Translations under genes and position numbers: made by a program | DNA from: Hypomesus transpacificus | Taxonomy: Eukaryota; Chordata; Actinopteri; Osmeriformes; Osmeridae | Assembly (NCBI RefSeq): GCF_021917145.1 | Contig: NC_061074.1 | Location: forward strand, 14,167,609 to 14,231,608 | Reading direction: 5' to 3' | DNA: 64,000 bases | Shown: positions 4,525 through 63,669 of the stretch, one piece after another | How the letters are laid out: the number at the start of each line of letters is the position of its first letter | How positions within the stretch are numbered: the first letter of the stretch is position 1 | Notes under the pieces: model-generated | What the model was told of the DNA's origin: nothing | The model's database searches: none | What the model saw: only the letters and a program-made list of their open reading frames with translations

Positions 4525-4641
<117 letters not shown>

Positions 4642-7938: not shown

Positions 7939-33247
<25,309 letters not shown>

Positions 33248-41845: not shown

Positions 41846-44800
41846 ATGCAAGGCAAGACAAAAATATCAATTCTAATGCAGGTAAACCTTGATGTTTTCA
41901 TGCATCACATGGATGAGAATTACAAAACAATTATGTCAACAATGTTTTTAACATAATTTTTTAAAATTCTACAACAGTGTGCCATCCTTTTTGAGTGGAG
42001 GGCTTGATATGACAAATTTGTGATGTTTCTATTTCTATGTTTAATATTTAGCCTAGTGCCTTAGATGCTTTCAATTATTAAGTAAACTTCTCAGTCAGAT
42101 GCAGAATGCCACATAACAATCTGACTGTGTGGTAGATTGTATAATTTGTTGTTAAATTCAAGACAATAGCTTCTTGTCATAGTCAAAGAGTTGCTTTTTC
42201 TGGTGTCTTTCACTAGGCCAACTTAGCATTGACACCTACAGAGTTGCTACCCTCACCAAGGAGTCCAGAGGTGAAGTTGCAGCCGGTACCCTCATCTTCC
42301 CCCACCTGCAGCCCTCTGAGTCCAACAGAGAGTCCAACAGTGAGTCCAACAGTGAGTCCAACAGTGAGTCCAACAGTGTGTCCAACAGTGAGTCCAACAG
42401 TGAGTCCAACAGTGAGTCCAACAGCGTGGGCCCCCGTGCTCTCCAGTGACGATGAGGATCCTGTCTGCTTTGAAAGGCCTGCTGAGACCACAACGCTGCT
42501 CAGCATCAACAAGGTCTGTCCATAGAATTTAACATTTCGACCAGGGTGATGTAAACCTTACTGGTGATGCTACTTTACTATGCAGTGGCATGCTTAGTAG
42601 TTTTCAGCTTGATCATGTGTGCAGCTTTAATATACAGTAATTATATTTATATGTCGGAAACATTTCAACATGGGTTGAAATTCACAGCACAACATTGTTA
42701 TGACAACTATAATTCTGTACTCCGCTGTAGAGATTAGACAGGTAGCAAATACAAGGAAAAAGGTGTTGGGTTATCACAAAATACCAGCACAGCTAAAATA
42801 CACCTAAGCATATATTGCACAAGTGTTTGGAACTCTTCTGAAGGCATGTCACACTATCCTTCCAAAAGTTATTCCTTAATTAGGTGTTTTGATGATGGTG
42901 GTAGACAGCACGCCTAATACATTGGTCCAAAGTCTCCCATTATGTTTAACTGAGCTGAGATCTGCTAACAGTAAGTACCATAATCAGATCATTTTCATGC
43001 TCATCACACCATTCAGTGATCCCTTGTGCCCTGTGGATTGGGGAATTGTCATCCTGGAAGAGACCATTCCAGGATAGGAATGTTTCATCACAGGAAAAAG
43101 AAAAAAAGGTGATATGAATTACTTTGTAAGGAACTGCAGTGACCGTTCCCTCTAAAGGGATAAATAGGGCCCAAACCATGCCAGAAAAATGCCCCCTACA
43201 CAGCCACCAGACCTTCTTGCTGTAGGGGTGCAGTATTCAGACCTGTACTGCTCTGGGTGCATGCCACACATGTACACACCCACTTGTAGAGAATAGGATC
43301 AAGTATGACTCATCTAACCACCCTTTCCCCACATCTCTCTACTAATGGTTCTCAACCCTTGTCCTCGGGGACCCCCGCCCTGCATGTTTTAGATGTTTCC
43401 CTGCTCCAACACACCTGATTCAAATGAATGAGTCATTAACAAGGTCAGTAGACTCATGACTCATTCATTTGAATCAGGTGTGTTGTGACTCATTCATTTG
43501 AATCAGGTGTGTTGGAGCAGGGAAACATCTAAAACATGCAGGGCAGAAGGGGGATCCCTGAGGACAAGGGGTTGAGAAAGCCTGCTTTAGATCAAAACCC
43601 ATATATTTTTCACCACAGAATTCTAAAATATGCATTCATATTTGTAATGAGGGGCAGACCAACATCCAGCGGCGTAACAAGGACTTGGCGGGCCCGAGTG
43701 CAGATCTCACCAACGGGCCCCGTACCGACCTATCGTCAGGCGAAATTATTGAGTTTTCAGTTTAGCGATGCGCAAGGAAATTTAGGCTACTCATGATGTA
43801 CAATTAAGGGTAACGACTGCTCCTTCTATGTGAAGATAGATTACGGTTTTCAAAAGTGAACGGCTCTGACTCGCGAGTCTCTGGCTCTAGATTATGCTTG
43901 CTACAACACAGAATGAGCATAATGGAACAGTCAGTCATGAGCCGACGTATCTGCGACGTTTGAAATAGAGCACAGAGATGAGAAGAAAATCTGATCATTT
44001 ACCGAGGCTTATTCGACGTTATGAATGACGTTTCGATCTGTCATGTGTGCTATCTGGGTACTAAAAAAAACAGTCACTTCGATGGTGAATATTTGATTTT
44101 ATGTTCGTTAGATATGCTAGTTTACATTTAGTCTATCTAGCTTTAGCTATTTTCCGACTACATCCTGCACATAGTTTACTATATCTAACCTGGCCGCTGC
44201 CTGGTAGCCTAGGCCTATATGTGCATTTTTATGACGTTTAATAGCCATGTCAACTGCATACACCAGACAGTAAACGTTATGTAATTATTAGCCTACCCTG
44301 GTGGCTGAGTTTCACACTCATTGCTGTTGCCGGGCTGGGGGTCAGACGTAGCGTCCTCTTCAACACGCTTCGCCACAATCCAAATGAGGATAGTTTTGAC
44401 AGCTTTGCCACCCTTACATCTTGCTCTTTTCGTTCCTGCCGCTTTCTGGAGCCACTTTTATGTTAAAGGGTATGGCATGGGGTAGCCTAATTCGCTTCAA
44501 AACGCTAATGCAACACAACTGTAGTATCCCAACAACTGTTTGTGGTATTCCAACAACTGGATGGGAACAATCGTGTGTGGGTGGGCGGGAATCTTTGACA
44601 ACAATATTACCCAGACATCCTTGCTATTTTTCGAGGGCAATATTACTTAATAAAAACGACATTTGTTTCATTCAGCAAAAGGCAAATGAGGAAAAATTAA
44701 TTATTTGCTGTTGTTAACACTGACTGTTTTTAAAATGTTTATTGGGCAAGTGATAGCTCATAATTATGAATAACTGACACCATAATTGAGAAATGTTTGC

Positions 44801-46782
44801 GAATTGATAAGAATGGATCATATGCGATCCTCAACTTGCGGTATAACAGCGGTGCAAGGGGCCTGGTCAGATTGCCTTAAGGGGCCCGGTCAGGTTGTCT
44901 CACTTTTACTGTGAGATCGAGGACGGGCCCCCTTTTGCCACGGGCCCTAGTGCAGCTGCACTCCTTGCACTCCCTATAGTTACGCCACTGCCAACATCCC
45001 TTTCCATGTGGTTGTTGGCAGACTGTTCATGTTAATCAGTTGAGCAGTCTTTGTGACTGAAGCTCCTGTAATGAACCATGTTTCAAAGTCACATATGTGT
45101 CACCTTTTTCCACAATTTAAGTTACTTGCAAGTGCTCTGAATTTGTATACATGCCCCAGAGCCAGGAGCGTAGCCACGGGTAGGCATGGGTAATCACAGG
45201 CCTACCCAATTTGTTCCAAGGCCTACCCAAAAACGAAAATATCTCTGAAAAATGATGCACCGGGTGCACATCGCAAAGTAAATAAGAAAAAAATCCTGAA
45301 AACATTATTCTGGCTATGACCCGGCCCAGTACATGAAGGTATGTTGCTTTCATTGTGTCATGTCATACACTTGTATGAAAGCATATGCCTTTTTTTCTGT
45401 TTCTCCACTCATTTATTAAAATGTCCGTCATTTGCCACCTGTTGGTGTGTTTGGAGTCATGGTCCTGCTGGAAAACCTACCTTTCTGTTATCGGGTTTAA
45501 CAATGCATGCCTCGGCTTGGTAATCCCATGATTTCACGATACCTAACGTCAGCAAAGAAGCCCCAGGTTATGGGTCAATCAGATCAAATGATGTATGGTA
45601 GAAACAGGAACATCATTGATTCTGGAAATCTGAAAGTGAAATTGTAGTGGGGGTTGACAAAAATCTTACGTTCCATGTATTTCTTTACCACTTGTGTGGG
45701 ATGTTTTTTTCTTGTCATTTTAGTAAATAAATATTTTTATTGCAAGCAACTTGCTTTTGGAATTTAAAAAGGGGAGCATGTATATCAACAAGATCTACAT
45801 AACATTATCTTTAATGTTATGTCCTGATACATGTCTTAACAAGGTTAAGACATGTATCAGGACAGGTTTGATTTGATATTGAGATCATGCAAGGAAGTGA
45901 AGAAATAATCTAAATTAGTATTGTTCTCCTGTATATGTGACACCGTCACTAACCTTCATAACACAGAAGCACCCAATCCCAATTCTTACCAACACGTAGT
46001 TGTGAGCATTAAGGTTGTGTCCTATGCCCAGGATAAGCCTGAGAACAGTCTCAAGAGGGATTAGAAATGTAATCCCCTTAACCCAGTTTCCCCTCATACC
46101 TTCTCTCTAGATGCCATTTTATGCAGGATTTCCTTTCTTTGGTGTCTTTTTGTTAACTGGGACAATTAAGTTAAAAAAAAATGGTAATGCAAATGAAGTG
46201 TACACAGTTGTCATTGTAAATATGTAAGATAATAAGTCCCTCATCTACCTGGATGACACTGAAGTGTTGGCCTACTTTAATGATTATGTTGCGTGCTGAG
46301 TCTGGTTCTTCTTTCCCCCACAGAGTCGTGCTCGACTGTCGTTCAAGAGGCGTCCGCCGACACGACAGCACAGAAGGTCCGCTGGAGAGGAAACAGTGAC
46401 ATCTGAGCTGCACAGTCCCCAATGGAATGGTGACAAGGACCATGTGTTTGAGGTTTCAGGACAGGAGGTTCAAGAAAGTCAGGGAAACTCCTGTGATGAA
46501 CCAGATCCTCTGAAAGTGGCTGAAGGAAAGAAGGACAGTACAGCAGACAAAGGACTGGAGGTCACTTCCTCTAGCTGTCTAAAGGCCACAGATAAGGCAG
46601 CTCTGGCACTCCAGGAGTCAGAGGAATCAGAGGAGCAGGCCCTGGCCTCCCCATCTCAGTCACAAGCCTCAGGTGTTATGGAGGCCATTGAAGATGGACT
46701 TGTTGGTTTTTACCCAGCTGGAACAATAGATGGCAGCATTAAGACAGAGGAGCAAGATCAGGTTTTTTCAATGGTTGACTAA
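41846..46782 (+). CDS. RCSD1/CapZIP-like protein (actin capping-protein interacting), N-terminus uncertain
   Basis: Two exons are secure: 42217-42513 and 46324-46782, joined in phase 0. The first begins ANLALTPTELLPSPRSPEVK, matching the CapZIP segment ANLTFDPAALLPGASPKSP, and ends PVCFERPAETTTLLSINK. The second opens SRARLSFKRRPPTRQHRRS, the RCSD motif (human RTRGSIKRRPPSRRFRRS), and continues as an acidic, Ser/Glu-rich tail to the stop. A possible first exon, 41846-41881 (MQGKTKISILMQ), ends at CAG|GTAAAC in phase 0, giving 263 residues overall; it only weakly resembles the family's IEKLQ segment. The normal N-terminal half is absent from the window. CapZIP binds CapZ and is a stress-kinase substrate in muscle. 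The first secure exon carries an in-frame SPTV minisatellite. Human RCSD1 is on 1q24, so this may be a paralogue or relocated copy. Confidence 0.7.
42319..42423 (+). repeat. Coding 12-bp minisatellite (SPTV repeats) in the RCSD1-like exon
   Basis: Nine near-identical 12-bp units (AGTCCAACAGTG with single-base variants) encode the SPTV/CPTV series. The unit is a multiple of three, so copy number can change without breaking the frame. All six frames stay open across it, which creates false antisense open frames. Confidence 0.85.
42780..43341. repeat. Degenerate dispersed repeat, 5' portion
   Basis: The text around 43045-43330 (ATTGTCATCCTGGAAGAG, GCCCCCTACACAGCCACCAG) resembles a known teleost dispersed repeat by pattern. 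The similar text around 45003-45110 and 45430-45475 suggests the same element continues after later insertions. Boundaries and family are not resolved. Confidence 0.4.
43342..43584. mobile_element. Palindromic hAT-type MITE with internal duplication
   Basis: Related to the MITE at 21590-21801: it shares TGCATGTTTTAGATGTTTCC, CACACCTGATTCAAATGAAT and their complements. Here a ~35-bp segment around GACTCATTCATTTGAATCAG is present twice in tandem on the right arm. The outermost bases have drifted and no clear 8-bp duplication remains, so it looks older than its relative. Confidence 0.75.
43667..44990. mobile_element. Non-autonomous hAT element, 1324 bp
   Basis: Terminal inverted repeats CAGCGGCGTAAC and GTTACGCCACTG match at 11 of 12 positions. 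A perfect 8-bp target duplication, CCAACATC, flanks it (43659-43666 and 44991-44998). GGGCCC-rich subterminal sequence occurs at both ends. No transposase-like open frame is present, so it needs a helper. It sits in the RCSD1-like intron. Confidence 0.9.
45163..45324. mobile_element. Short hAT-type MITE, degenerate
   Basis: Starts CAGGAGCGTAGCCACGGGTA and ends TGGCTATGACCCGG, an imperfect inverted pair. Flanking octamers CCCAGAGC and CCCAGTAC agree at 6 of 8 positions. Together these fit an old, 162-bp hAT-type insertion. Confidence 0.65.
45820..45864. repeat. Perfect 21-bp inverted repeat with 3-nt loop
   Basis: The arms TGTCCTGATACATGTCTTAAC and their exact complement surround AAG. No flanking duplication was found. 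It lies in the large intron of the RCSD1-like gene. Confidence 0.85.
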
Positions 46783-47739: not shown

Positions 47740-47755
47740 TACGGTTATAACCGTA
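47740..47755. repeat. 16-bp perfect palindrome
   Basis: TACGGTTATAACCGTA lies about 450 bp upstream of the TTMP-like start codon. The same core recurs at 60592-60611, extended to 20 bp. Confidence 0.8.
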
Positions 47756-54506: not shown

Positions 54507-56167
54507 GTGACTCTCTGGTTGCTTATACATTGGACTATACAGAATAATTTAAAAAATCTAAGCAAAGGAAAGAAGTGGAAAGCAATGTAAAATAACTTGT
54601 GAAAAAGGAGACTTTGATCGCTCCTATAATTATATCTCAACTGATCTGAGGATGGAATTACAGAGCTAACAACACTGCTTGACAATGAGTTCTATAAGAG
54701 AATCACCTGAGACAATGGAGACCTGCTTGTGATCGCCTATTCTTAGTTCCTCTACTCACCAAAAGATTGTCTTAAAAATGTTTCCTAAAACAGAAAATCT
54801 AACATCAATTAAGCTGTGACAACAAGTCTAACCACATATTTATCAAGCTGTGGACATCCCGCAGAATGGAGAAATAGTAAATTAGGTGTTACACTGGCAA
54901 TGTTGAGTAATGATTGCTGGTTGCTGGCTGCTGGTTGATCATTTACTGTTGTAAGGGATTTAACAAATGATGTTTGCTGGTGGCACTTTCCACAGAGAGA
55001 CAAGCTGTGTAGTGCACATTTTAAAATGGTTATTATGCAATTCCTCTATTTTCTACTGAATTTAATAGAACATACGTTGAGCCATCAGACTAATTGCAGT
55101 TCATGTACCTATTTCAATACAAGGCCACCCAATCCCTACTCACAAATGGAAAAGATTGCACTTTATAGAATGAAATGTCCCTAACCAACCTGTTTTATTC
55201 ACATTAACTGGTCACAAAATGACAGTATTCATGTTAAATAAGCTACTGCCTCTCTTGTTAAATTTGATTGTCTGTGACTGTGAAATCATTGAGTGTATAA
55301 GGCTGTAATTTTACAGTATATTATTTAAAAGTGTTTAACTTGCCTTAAAAATAAAATTCTGAAAAACATAAAACGAATAACAGTAACATTTCTCTTATTA
55401 CTAGTCTCTATGTTTTAAAATATCATACAGGATACAGCACTGGACAAGGTACTTGCAGAGCAAGGTAAACACTCTTGTAACACAAACATACACTGGACCA
55501 CAACCTTGCCCTAAACTGGATGAACTTTTAAGCTAGATCTCAAAATAAGGATTGATGATGTGGAAGTGGATTTGGAAAATATTAAAAGCAGTTTATATAT
55601 TATGTCAATGCCTGTATTAGTGTGCATATTGGTACATTGGCCATTCATCTTGATAAGCAGCTCTAACACAATGTCATTAACCCTAACCCAATGTTTTAGT
55701 TACTGTATTCATAAAGGAAAAATGTGTCTCGTAATAACAATTGACAAAATGTATATATTTTAAATACATTGTCAATCTTTGTATACGTGTATAAGTAGTG
55801 CTGAAACAGACAAGATAAGTATCAAATAGATACACATGCATGTTAGTAACTTCACAATGCAAACAGTGCAGACCTTAAATGCACTGCCCACTTGAAGCAG
55901 TTTAAAATAACTTTCAATAGTGCTATAGTATAACAACTAAATTTATTTCATGGCCATCACATAAATATTGTTTAGAAGGTCTGAATTAATCATTTAAATC
56001 AGTACATAATCATACTATATGTGATATAGTGAAAAACACTTTAGACAGCACACGGTGTCACAGTGGACTTTCAGTCACTGCCAAAGAAAACGGCAGCTTG
56101 TGAAAATCAAACAATTGAGAAACTTGAGCCATCATTGCAGTCAAAATGTTCTTAAATCAGACCACCT

Positions 56168-56209
56168 AGTTGCATAATATCACCAGCCAGTTGCATAATA
56201 TCACCAGCC
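56168..56209 (+). promoter_or_regulatory. Tandem 21-bp duplication with C/EBP-like sites, thrsp promoter
   Basis: Two exact copies of AGTTGCATAATATCACCAGCC abut each other. Each holds TTGCATAAT, close to the C/EBP consensus. They end 25 bp before the TATA-like box. Confidence 0.5.
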
Positions 56210-56233
56210 AGTCAATGTCAGGCAAGCGTTTTG

Positions 56234-56240
56234 CATAAAA
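56234..56240 (+). promoter_or_regulatory. TATA-like box of thrsp (CATAAAA)
   Basis: CATAAAA lies about 100 bp upstream of the start codon, at a sensible spacing for a short leader. No other core element competes with it. Confidence 0.5.
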
Positions 56241-56335
56241 ACCCAGCCTGTTCTTTCATGGCACTGCAGACTGACTTCTGGCTACCACCATCATACCAAC
56301 CGCACCAGAGAAGCCAGAACAATTTGATTGGAAAC

Positions 56336-56755
56336 ATGCAGTCTGCCGAGGCCAAGCTCAACAAAAGCTTCCTGCTCCTGGCTTTAAGGAGATACAACAC
56401 AGCTGTGCAAAACATGGAGCACACCATCCTCCTACCTAGTCTCCTAAGAGATGTGCCATCTGACTATGTTGAAGACTGTGATGCAGCAGAGGGCTCCTGT
56501 AAAGATCTGTATGACGACTATCTCATGGTGAAGGCCATCAGAAACAAAGTGGAGAGTGGTCTGGTTCCCCTAGATGAACTCAAGGATAAAGCCCACGCAG
56601 AACTTCACACAACCTTGGGGCCGTTGCTGGAGGTCGATCCTGAAGCCCTTTTCTACTTTCACCTCAGAGGGCTATTCACTGTAATGGTCTCTCTTACCAA
56701 AAAATCCCAGAGCCTCACAACTAAGTACTTGGACATCATTGGAGTGGCAAACTAA
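56336..56755 (+). CDS. thrsp: Thyroid hormone-responsive Spot 14 protein
   Basis: One uninterrupted coding exon, 139 residues, starting MQSAEAKLNKSFLLLALRRY. Hallmarks of the Spot14/MID1IP1 family are present: NMEHTILLPSLLRDVP near the N-terminus, a variable acidic centre, and FHLRGLFTVMVSLTKKSQ..TKYLDIIG near the C-terminus. The frame is open upstream of this ATG, but the family start and the promoter position favour 56336. Spot14 forms dimers with MID1IP1, modulates acetyl-CoA carboxylase polymerisation and raises lipogenesis in liver and fat. Length (human THRSP 146) and position beside ndufc2, as on human 11q14, favour THRSP over MID1IP1. The poly(A) signal AATAAA is at 56863. ndufc2 converges from the other side. 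Confidence 0.88.
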   Translation: MQSAEAKLNKSFLLLALRRYNTAVQNMEHTILLPSLLRDVPSDYVEDCDAAEGSCKDLYDDYLMVKAIRNKVESGLVPLDELKDKAHAELHTTLGPLLEVDPEALFYFHLRGLFTVMVSLTKKSQSLTTKYLDIIGVAN

Positions 56756-59149: not shown

Positions 59150-59437
59150 CGGGGTGGGCATGAGACGGGAGGGCATGAAACGGGAGGGCATGAGACGGGA
59201 GGGCATGAGGCGGCGGGAGGGCATGAGACGGGAGGGCATGAGACGACGGGATGCATGAGACGGCGGGAGGGCATGAGACGGCGGGAGGGCATGAGACGGG
59301 AGGGCATGAGACGGGAGGGCATGAGACAAGAGGGCATGAGAAGAGAGGGCATGAGAAGAGAGGGCATGAGACGGAAGGGCATGAGACGGGAGGGCATGAG
59401 ACGGGAGGGAATGAGACGGGAGGGCATGAGACGGGAG
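59150..59437. repeat. 15-bp minisatellite (GGCATGAGACGGGAG)n
   Basis: About 19 units, several with an inserted GC or changed core (AGAAGAG variants), run almost uninterrupted. The unit length keeps all frames open, so the apparent proteins on both strands are artefacts. Confidence 0.9.
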
Positions 59438-60591
59438 GCTCTCTGGTCATCAGCTGGTTGACCAATTGGGTCATGATGTCTTGAGAGTAGAAATCAGTGG
59501 ATGCGCCACTGTTTCCTGGAGGGCATGACTTACAATATTTATTTATTCATATACACAGCATTTGATTAAGCATTTTTATACACTTACCTTCAGTCAAAAT
59601 ATACATGGATGGATGTGTTACACATAAACTCTCTTATTTTATAAATGGTTCACTCGAAGATGTGAATAACAAACCAACTTTACAGCCAAAATATATTGAC
59701 AATCAGAACAATAACATAGCCTATAGCCTAAGATAATTATGAGAACTGTCCTTTCATTACCAGACATTACACCAAAGGATGTTAATGACATTTGTCAACT
59801 CTTTGACTTTGCTTCATCAAATACAGAACGAAGTTTTGAATCGTTCACCAGTTTTACCAGACAGTGCAGTGCCATTGGTGACATCACCGACTGATAATTC
59901 TGACTGAGCCTCTACTGTTAGGCTGTGTGGTCGAGATCATACTCTTGATCAAACTGACCGGATGCATGCATACCACAGTCTGTATTTAGGGGAGTTCCCC
60001 AGGTTTTGGTAAGTACAAATGACATTCAATCTTACAATTACCACATCCACAACCCGTACTTTCTACGCTATCTTATACATTAGCCACCGGCTCCTGCATC
60101 AGGATACTGAAGCCGTCCTAGTAGCAAACTAGCTAGCTAGTGGTGCACTTGTATGCTGTCTTTTCGCTAGCTTAAGGTGAGGCCCTGGTCACATACGAAT
60201 GCTGTGAATGTTGATGGAGCGAGTGTGTGTTTATTATTGACAGTTTGTTGTTGCCAGGTTGGACAGATAGCTCTAGCAATGCTAACTGTATAATACTGCT
60301 GGTATATGGATATTCAGTCTAGTCTAGCTACTGTAGCTAGTAAATCGCTAGCGCCATCATCAGCATCACCATCAGGGGTGGGGGCAGCCAACCACTGTTG
60401 TTGAATCAATTAGCTAACCCCAGTAACAGCTCATCATTACATAACTATCGCTACCCTTTGTTGTTGTAAATACACTTTCGGATGGCTGAAAATGTGTTAG
60501 CAGTACAGTAGTTTTGCCAGGCAATGTCAACAGACAGAGGACGGAGGCCAGAGACTGTACTGCTAGTTTGCTAAGGCTATCTATAACGGGG

Positions 60592-60611
60592 CATACGGTT
60601 ATAACCGTATG
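60592..60611. repeat. 20-bp perfect palindrome
   Basis: CATACGGTTATAACCGTATG is self-complementary. Its last two bases overlap the left target duplication of the fold-back element, so it may have marked the insertion site. Confidence 0.85.
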
Positions 60612-60617
60612 AACATG

Positions 60618-62125
60618 GAGAGGCAGCTAAATCTTTTTTTGCGTTTTGGACGTCCATATGGACGTCCATAGACTGACGGCGATGGCTGCTGATCTTTGCA
60701 TGGATGGACGGACGGCGATGCTGTTCAGAGTGCCGTCCATAGAGGGAGCAGATATTTTGGACGGCGATGGATTAGCAGGGACGTCCCTCGTGCCGTCCAT
60801 AGAGGGAGCAGATATTTTGGACGGCGCCATAGCCGTCCATATGGACGGCGATGCTGTTCAGAGTGCCGTCCATAGAGGGAGCATATATTTTGGACGGCGA
60901 TGGATTGAATGTTTAGCAGGCTGTTGAGCTAACAGAACTGCCGAAGGCTACCATAGCATGTAGCTAGCTACATTAACTTTGGATGACTCAATCTTTTGTC
61001 AAGTTAATTTGTATGAATTGCATGTTAGTGCAATATTTACGCCTTCTGTTTTTTTACATAATCAGCAGTATGATCTCATGACAATATAGACTTGAAAAAC
61101 AATATGTTATGGTTTGGGTTTGCCTATAGGCTACATATATTTTAATTATTTCGAGAATTGTTAATAAAGACTCATTTAAAATTTTAAAATTTGGAGTGTT
61201 AGGCCCATAGGCTATTACGTTTTGCATTTGTCTCCGCTCAAAGTGGTTCGTGCGCAACATTGGAGCTACTGACTGGTGGCTCCAAATCCACCCATAAAAC
61301 ACTTAAAACTGACGGTTTAAAAGACCTAAATGGCAATGTATTTCATAGGGTCATAACACAATGTTAACATTTTAAATGAGTCTTTATTAACAATTCTCGA
61401 AATAATTAAAACATATGCAGGCCTAGCCTATATCTCGGCAAACCCAAACCATAACATAGGCATATTGTTTTTCAAGTCTATATTGTCATGAGATTATACT
61501 GATGATTATGTAAAGCCCTAAAAGGCATTGTATTTCATAGGGTCATAACACAATGTTAAAATTTTAAATGAGTCTTTATTAACAATTCTCGAAATAATTA
61601 AAATATATGTAGCCTATAGGCAAACCCAAACCATAACATATTGTTTTTCAAGTCTATATTGTCATGAGATCATACTGCTGATTATGTAAAAAAACAGAAG
61701 GCGTAAATATTGCACTAACATGCAATTCATACAAATTAACTTGACAAAAGATTGAGTCATCCAAAGTTAATGTAGCTAGCTACATGCTATGGTAGCCTTC
61801 GGCAGTTCTGTTAGCTCAACAGCCTGCTAAACATTCAATCCATCGCCGTCCAAAATATATGCTCCCTCTATGGACGGCACTCTGAACAGCATCGCCGTCC
61901 ATATGGACGGCTATGACGCCGTCCAAAATATCTGCTCCCTCCATGGACGGCACGAGGGACGTCCCTGCCAATCCATCGCCGTCCAAAATATCTGCTCCCT
62001 CTATGGACGGCACTCTGAACAGCATCGCCGTCCGTCCATCCATGCAAAGATCAGCAGCCATCGCCGTCAGTCTACGGACGTCCATATGGACGTCCAAAAC
62101 GCAAAAAAAGATTTAGCTCCTACTG
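60618..62125. mobile_element. Fold-back hAT-type giant MITE, 1508 bp
   Basis: Two inverted arms, about 60618-61188 and 61557-62125, are nearly identical. Ends read GAGAGGCAGCTAAATC on the left and, complemented, CAGTAGGAGCTAAATC on the right. A perfect 8-bp direct repeat, TGAACATG, lies immediately outside (60610-60617 and 62126-62133), as expected for hAT. The outer ~300 bp of each arm hold repeated units with CCGTCCAT, GGACGTCC, CCGTCCATATGGACGG and GGGAGCAGATATTTTGGACG. The central spacer contains a further diverged copy of part of the right arm in tandem (about 61330-61520 beside 61522-61690). Open frames read from the arms are repeat artefacts; no transposase is present. Confidence 0.85.
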
Positions 62126-62462
62126 TGAACATGGTAGCTATGTACGCTAGCAAATGGCATTACAAATGACTTGTACGACCTTTTAGACCACACAGCGCAC
62201 ACAACAAATAGTTGCCAAGGAAGCTACTGTACTTCATCATGGTTTAAAGCAGGGTATTGCAAAGCGCATGGCCTTCACATTCCAATATTTCCAGCATCCT
62301 CCTACCACCAGTCAAAATAACTATCCAAGATGAACGGAAGGTGTTGGTGTTCTTCATAACCTGCTCATGTGTTTTCAGCAATAATGATCGACATCCTGCC
62401 AATGACAATTTTATAATACAATTGCACTAATCCCGTCTCATTTTGCCCATCTACAGGTTAGA

Positions 62463-63669
62463 ATGAGCATGGAGGATTATGACTACCTGTTCAAAATTGT
62501 GCTAATAGGAAACGCTGGTGTCGGAAAGACCTGTTTAGTCAGACGTTTTACTCAGGTATGCACAACATGATGTGTAATGATGATTGAAGAATCAATACCA
62601 TTTTCAAATGGATATTACTTGATCTGATGTGTTTATTCCATTCTACAGGGCCTTTTCCCACCTGGTCAAGGGGCTACAATAGGAGTTGATTTTATGATCA
62701 AAACAGTGGAAATTAAAGGATTGAAAGTAAAGGTCTGTCTATAATGCTTGCTTTTGTAAGACAATAGCCTAATCGAAATTATGACCTTGTTCCCAACCTT
62801 TAAAACACAAGCCCATGTGTCATTTTTGTCATTGGCCGGGTTTCCCAGATTCGTTAAGAACACTCTTGGAACGTTCTTAAGACGCTCTTAGCGTTAAGAG
62901 CTTCTTAACGAATCTGGGAAACCCGGCCATTGTCATTATTATTGAGTGAACAGTGCAACAACAATGTTTTTTTCCAACACACCTGATAAAGAAGAACAAC
63001 CCTTGCTATGTTTTCCTCACCAACTTTCACCATATCACCATAACAAAATAAAGCAAAACAATGTAGGAACTTAAAACTTGCTGCTGCAATCCTTGTCAGT
63101 GGCTCGATATTAATTTAAACTCTGGATTACAGCTGCAAATATGGGACACAGCTGGACAAGAGAGGTTCCGCTCCATTACTCAGAGTTACTACCGTAGTGC
63201 CAACGCCCTTATCCTTACCTATGATATCACCTGTGAGGACTCCTTCCGGTGCCTTCCAGAATGGCTGAAAGAGATTGAACAGTATGCTAACAACCAAGTG
63301 GTGACCATCTTGGTGGGTGAGTATTTATTTTTATTTTATTGGATTTTACATTCTGAACACCTTTTCTTAAACCAGACAGTGTATATTAACTGCTGTAACA
63401 TTTCACTTTCTTCCACAGGTAATAAGATAGACCTTGCTGAAAAAAGAGAAGTATTGAGGCAGAGGGCTGAAGAGTTTGCTGTTTCTCAAAGCATGCTCTA
63501 TTTGGAGACTTCAGCCAAAGAGTCAGACAATGTGGAGAAACTCTTCCTTGATCTGGCTTGTGAACTGATTCAAGACGCCAAGCAGAATACGCTGGACAAC
63601 AATGACACTGCCCCAATGCCTGGGGAGGGCAAAAGCATTAGCTACTTAAGCTGCTGCAGCCTCAATTAG
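62463..63669 (+). CDS. rab30: Ras-related small GTPase Rab30
   Basis: Four coding exons, 62463-62555, 62649-62732, 63133-63316 and 63419-63669, encode 203 residues, the length of human RAB30. Start [19 protein letters not shown]-binding motifs are intact: P-loop GNAGVGKT, switch I GATIGVDF, switch [13 protein letters not shown], base-recognition NKIDLAE, and ETSAKES. The C-terminus YLSCCSLN carries the paired cysteines for prenylation. RAB30 localises to the Golgi and supports its structure and autophagosome formation during infection. The exon 1 acceptor (CTACAG|GTTAGA) shows that there is an upstream leader exon; the fold-back element lies within or upstream of that leader intron. Intron 1 is only 93 bp. 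3' UTR continues to the window edge. Confidence 0.96.
62834..62928. mobile_element. Short palindromic MITE in rab30 intron 2
   Basis: GGCCGGGTTTCCCAGATTCG and its exact complement form the ends of a 95-bp hairpin with TTAAGA-rich centre. The 8-bp TTGTCATT occurs directly before (62826-62833) and one base after (62930-62937), consistent with an 8-bp duplication plus one extra base. Confidence 0.75.

Follow-up and report, generated by a model that had tools for sequence, protein, structure and literature searches.

The inverted arms and their flanks

The window analysed here, a 64-kb stretch of DNA from Hypomesus transpacificus, contains near its right end a 1,508-bp element with two long inverted arms (60618-62125), followed by a rab30-like gene of the Ras family, the name rab30 being that proposed in the first-pass annotation. 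When ten reading frames of the window were compared with Pfam, a Spot_14 domain was found at 56156-56752 and a Ras family domain at 63067-63666, the latter in a downstream exon of the rab30-like gene; the same set gave 7tm_1 in three frames and fn3 in one, with no match in the remaining four. The element and its surroundings are composed as follows (a strand is assigned to the exon only):

60610-60617: left direct repeat TGAACATG, presumed target-site duplication (direct reading)
60618-60624: left tip GAGAGGC, with 4 of 7 bases unlike the right tip (tip comparison)
60625-60920: left arm, outer part, bearing three 37-bp units and the GGACG/CGTCC array, whose 16 sites span 60648-60896
60921-61191: left arm, inner part, AT-rich and without GGACG/CGTCC sites
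61192-61319: spacer, 128 bp without convincing repeat in the window
61320-61511: spacer, inner right arm repeated in tandem (diverged copy, period of 192 bp)
61512-61551: 40 bp found on the right side and in the spacer copy, missing from the left arm
61552-61830: right arm, inner AT-rich part
61831-62118: right arm, outer part, with the GGACG/CGTCC array of 16 sites
62119-62125: right tip, CAGTAGG when read inward (tip comparison)
62126-62133: right direct repeat TGAACATG (direct reading)
62457-62555, + strand: first coding exon of the rab30-like gene, with its ATG at 62463, placed 331 bp after the end of the element (direct reading)

A repeat search detected the two inverted arms (60625-61191 and 61552-62118) as sequences of 567 nt each, 99% complementary and 360 nt apart, in agreement with the pair of nearly identical arms of about 570 bp described in the first pass. 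They differ at 5 of the 567 positions (60668, 60774, 60801, 60827 and 61188 in left-arm coordinates), and the last of these is only 4 bp off the inner edge of the left arm, in such a way that a 563-bp core remains with 4 mismatches. All four are located within the outer 203 of the 563 bp, for which a chance of 0.017 was calculated post hoc and given no weight. The arms account for 1,134 of the 1,508 bp and contain internal 37-bp units, which is the structure of a foldback-type element.

The direct repeat TGAACATG is present at both ends of the element (60610-60617 and 62126-62133), as corresponds to the target-site duplication of a foldback-type transposon, and has no other occurrence on the two strands of the window, so that the 8-bp outer repeat reported before is well founded; it becomes 9 bp long if the next G is included. 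For comparison, when 20,000 pairs of 24-bp segments were drawn at random from the window, 31 had a word of at least 9 bases in common; pairs lying less than 30 bp apart were skipped in this control yet kept in the denominator.

The ends had also been described as matching over 16 bp and as being of the CAG type. When both are read inward, GAGAGGC is found at the left tip and CAGTAGG at the right one, and the outermost 7 positions differ at 4; matching 16-bp ends have to be abandoned, and the CAG start is retained for the right tip but not for the left one, which reads GAG. Inward of these 7 bases, both ends are identical over the 25 further bases compared, and it has to be explained why two arms of 99% identity should end in different tips. 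Long inverted repeats are hard to assemble, and the arms might be thought an artefact of the assembly. We find this hardly credible, since 5 differences in 567 positions, unequal tips, an asymmetrical spacer and a flanking direct repeat are not expected of a folded-back artefact.

No long reading frame was found in the element, its longest stop-free stretch being of 98 codons, and inspection by eye of the six-frame translation of 143 bp at 61188-61330 revealed nothing recognisable as a transposase remnant. What fills the outer part of each arm is a dense array of GGACG/CGTCC sites, 16 per arm, in both orientations and spanning about 250 bp. In dinucleotide shuffles (2,000 per arm) the number of sites averaged 0.66 and 0.81, with maxima of 4 and 5, and the remaining 62,492 bp of the window contain 22 sites; none was found in the AT-rich inner parts of the arms. 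Three 37-bp CCGTCC...GGACGG units are present per arm, and perfect palindromes of 18-22 bp were detected in both arms, supporting the earlier description of repeated palindromic GGACGG units and of a dense subterminal array.

The array is most likely a platform for transposase binding, by analogy with Hermes and Galileo, in which domains of the transposase bind subterminal or arm repeats: the BED domains of Hermes bind short subterminal repeats (PMC10368747), and multiple THAP sites are described within the arms of Galileo (PMC3688188). For the repeats of Foldback and Phantom, transposase binding is given as untested in PMC3688188.

Several other repeats and palindromes were observed in the window. 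The 16-bp palindrome TACGGTTATAACCGTA occurs twice, within 60592-60611 and at 47740-47755, with 23 of 26 columns aligning around it, and the copy beside the element is 20 bp long and runs two bases into the left direct repeat. A looser search, in which up to 3 of 14 positions were allowed to mismatch, detected 3 occurrences, a number reached by 15 of 100 shuffles, and constitutes no test of the exact pair. A weak palindrome around TTATAA is the preferred target of Tol2 (PMC2753552), and the 20-bp palindrome was considered as a Tol2-like target and discarded, the element not being at its centre. A 212-bp palindromic element at 21590-21801, with CAGTGG ends and CTATATTT on both sides, has the appearance of a hAT-type MITE; a palindromic relative of it (84% over 146 columns) is located at 43349-43578, with no clear CAGTGG ends at these boundaries. 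Another palindromic element, of 109 bp, is found at 62827-62935, apparently in an intron of the rab30-like gene, and a near-perfect hairpin of 45 bp at 45820-45864. The window also contains a CpG-rich minisatellite of 15 bp and 18.4 copies upstream of the element (59152-59438), interstitial telomere-like repeats of the CCTAAC/AACCCT kind (18706-18828) and 115 uninterrupted C (4527-4641), which are possibly real and possibly a feature of the assembly.

Spacer copy, CpG content and the history of the arms

That the spacer holds its own tandem copy of arm sequence was verified by alignment of 61320-61514 with 61512-61690, which match at 88% over 195 columns. About 40 bp of this repeat (61512-61551) match 61320-61359, and the left arm is without them. 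Over the 139-bp stretch that is present in three copies, the spacer copy alone differs at 8 substitutions and 2 indels; changes specific to the left arm amount to 1 substitution, which is 4 bp from the repeat edge and may fall outside the true homology, and those specific to the right arm to 0. Changes specific to the spacer copy are thus 10 of 11, a skew with a P of 0.001 without indels and of 0.0001 with indels under three equal rates. Taking the spacer copy as outgroup, with 10 of the 11 changes being its own, the arms probably acquired their similarity once the spacer tandem copy had split off, as far as such small counts can tell. An accelerated divergence of the spacer copy would mimic this late homogenisation of the arms. 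The comparison suggests copying or conversion of the arms, and not merely a recent jump, and such copying or conversion may predate the insertion.

The CpG content was also analysed. Only 3 of 637 bins of 300 bp have at least 20 CpGs, all three overlapping the outer arms, where the observed/expected ratios are 1.11 and 1.18 versus 0.37 for the whole window. Within the 563-bp core the two arms share 25 CpGs, and a single further CpG is confined to the right arm. Where methylation causes CpG decay, these CpG-rich outer arms are a hint of a young insertion, with which the intact direct repeat agrees, although the high CpG content could come from absence of methylation and not from youth. The near identity of the arms had been taken in the first-pass annotation to imply recent insertion or arm-to-arm conversion. 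This proposal can be made more precise: the spacer copy (10 of 11 changes) suggests a later homogenisation of the arms, whatever the time of the insertion, and the CpG richness points to a young insertion; the use of arm identity as a date has to be given up, as it does not, by itself, give an insertion date.

Position relative to the rab30-like gene

The best donor-like sites between 56.8 and 62.5 kb, scored with a simple home-made matrix, are at 60177, 58572 and 60009, all of them upstream of the element, which makes it plausible that the element lies within the rab30 leader intron. In a predicted RNA fold, 562 of the 567 arm positions are paired in register, with -1174.8 kcal/mol, and a long double-stranded RNA from the arms is a prediction of this fold only. 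Long inverted arms near a gene could, as a possibility only, give double-stranded RNA or promote rearrangement. A function for the host, as source of double-stranded RNA or as regulatory hairpin in the leader intron, would fit with the location 331 bp ahead of the first coding exon, with the predicted in-register pairing and with the donor-like sites upstream, but we consider it very improbable, as all these features are also expected of a passenger transposon.

Nature of the element and related systems

The presence of further copies was investigated. Elsewhere in the 64-kb window no convincing second copy was found, the weak matches having E values of at least 0.3. Exact arm patterns gave 0 matches in the viral_contigs collection and 2 in genome_contigs, both in contigs of bacterial MAGs, when around 1.9 chance matches are expected, by our own arithmetic, for a 19-base pattern in 257 billion bases with both strands counted. 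A distant BLAST search against plasmids and phages produced no match; the searched collections consist of prokaryote and viral DNA, and absence from them says little about fish. The window had 0 matches in Rfam at gathering scores. Arm and tip strings were also looked for in full-text literature, and none appeared among the matches listed, which contained only nTnnnnAn, a result that makes no claim of absence from print. The case for mobility of the candidate element is limited by the lack of a second copy and of a transposase seen in the window.

The best explanation, and one that we hold as very probable, is that a non-autonomous, foldback-type (long-arm) cut-and-paste DNA transposon inserted at this site and duplicated 8 (or 9) bp of its target. 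The arms, TGAACATG and the 16 sites per arm endorse the large foldback-type insertion with target-site duplication and dense subterminal array that had been put forward from the first reading. In the mechanism that we propose, the insertion of a non-autonomous foldback-type element would have duplicated 8 or 9 bp of target, and a transposase from another element would bind the GGACG/CGTCC array and cut at the tips. The long arms would have been generated by copying one end, in inverted orientation, onto the other, either by aberrant gap repair after excision or by conversion between the folded arms. In the simplest reading the copied tract would be of about 563 bp, leaving about 7 bp at the tip uncopied, with arm-to-arm conversion as the alternative. 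An older copy of the inner arm is preserved in the spacer, which allows the order of events to be followed in a single copy, and the point at which copying came to an end may be indicated by the unequal tips.

Regarding the superfamily, which has to be judged by structure as no stop-free stretch is longer than 98 codons, the estimates that follow are our own. hAT elements are common in fish, and having this in mind together with the CAGTGG-ended palindromic element at 21590-21801, the hAT superfamily is placed slightly ahead, at somewhat less than even chances, as an element with elongated arms whose array would be bound by BED domains. From the hAT-like insertion claimed in the first-pass annotation, the 8-bp repeat and the right CAG are preserved, and the left GAG, the YARNG form, the forms of the duplication and the arm length count against it. 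In hATs the tip form is YARNG, which both tips miss, GAGAG at base 1 and CAGTA at base 5, and the left tip reads GAG; the right tip does start with CAG, the 8-bp target-site duplication proper of hATs is present (with 9 bp also possible), and the 21590-21801 element, by its ends and by CTATATTT on both sides, points to hAT-type movement in the same genome. The subterminal binding by the BED domains of Hermes (PMC10368747) is a further argument in favour. By contrast, TGAACATG fits neither the nTnnnnAn form of Hermes (PMC2803484) nor the nnnTAnnn form of Buster (PMC3517528), a mismatch that is weak evidence because it comes from one site and because individual Hermes sites tabulated in PMC2803484 depart from the form as well, and the 567-bp arms are far from the short inverted ends of 5-27 bp given in PMC3517528.

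In its anatomy the element agrees with the Mutator-like/Foldback group (MULEs), as a member with long arms and subterminal repeats, no less well than with hAT, and we regard this reading as possible, if on the unlikely side. Arms longer than 100 bp combined with an 8-10-bp duplication, typical of MULEs according to PMC5225508, are found here; in the Aedes MULE families treated there, 12 of 14 have arms longer than 100 bp, and 10 of these 12 carry short subterminal tandem repeats. Most foldback elements seem to be Mutator according to PMC4079207. However, the sites in the present arms do not form a regular tandem array of 9-15 bp. Membership of the P superfamily, as a Galileo-like element, is improbable: Galileo has internally repetitive arms of up to about 1.25 kb, which in some cases carry a tandem repeat of around 210 bp and are longest in its non-autonomous copies (PMC3573991), and multiple THAP sites in its arms (PMC3688188), but its duplication is of 7 bp (PMC3573991) and not of 8 or 9 as here. 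Merlin was rejected, as its tips should begin with GG (PMC8101967) and GAGAGG and CAGTAGG do not. Any other superfamily is a rather unlikely home for the element.

A more specific reading is that a vertebrate hAT has been caught here after turning foldback, one of its ends, array included, having been copied in inverted orientation onto the other except for the outermost 7 bp or so, to give two equal arrays with different tips. We consider it doubtful. If it were true, the transposase would now meet two equal dense arrays at two different tips, and if in addition other copies showed intermediates (tandem copy, short or unequal arms), the step by which foldback elements arise would be documented.

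Coming back to the foldback-type transposon as the preferred explanation, its long-arm design is already known from other organisms, and the element described here would be another case. The hATs Tol2 of medaka (PMC8151067) and Hermes (PMC10368747) and the Mar MITEs (PMC3517528) share with it the 8-bp duplication, the CAG tip, found at one tip here, and subterminal repeats, which are used by the transposase in those hATs; an internal inverted repeat (Angel) is described for Tol2 (PMC8151067). On the contrary, hAT arms are short, and neither the tips nor the duplication found here conform to the consensus forms consulted. Merlin, as described in PMC8101967, has 8-9-bp duplications, arms of 24-462 bp and internal tandem repeats in some elements, and differs in its tips, which start with GG, as neither tip does here. 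Galileo of Drosophila (PMC3573991, PMC3688188) is similar in its very long and internally repetitive arms, in a tandem repeat of around 200 bp and in having several binding sites in the arms (candidate sites in the present element), and is distinguished by a 7-bp duplication versus 8 or 9. Muta1 of Aedes aegypti (PMC5225508) and Tetris of Drosophila virilis (PMC4079207) show regular short tandem repeats where the element has GGACG/CGTCC half-sites of mixed orientation, and resemble it in their long arms, subterminal repeats, duplications (8-9 bp in Muta1 and 8-10 bp in Tetris) and non-autonomous copies; in Tetris, tandem repeats of about 220 bp in the arms (PMC4079207) are also reminiscent of the tandem copy found here.
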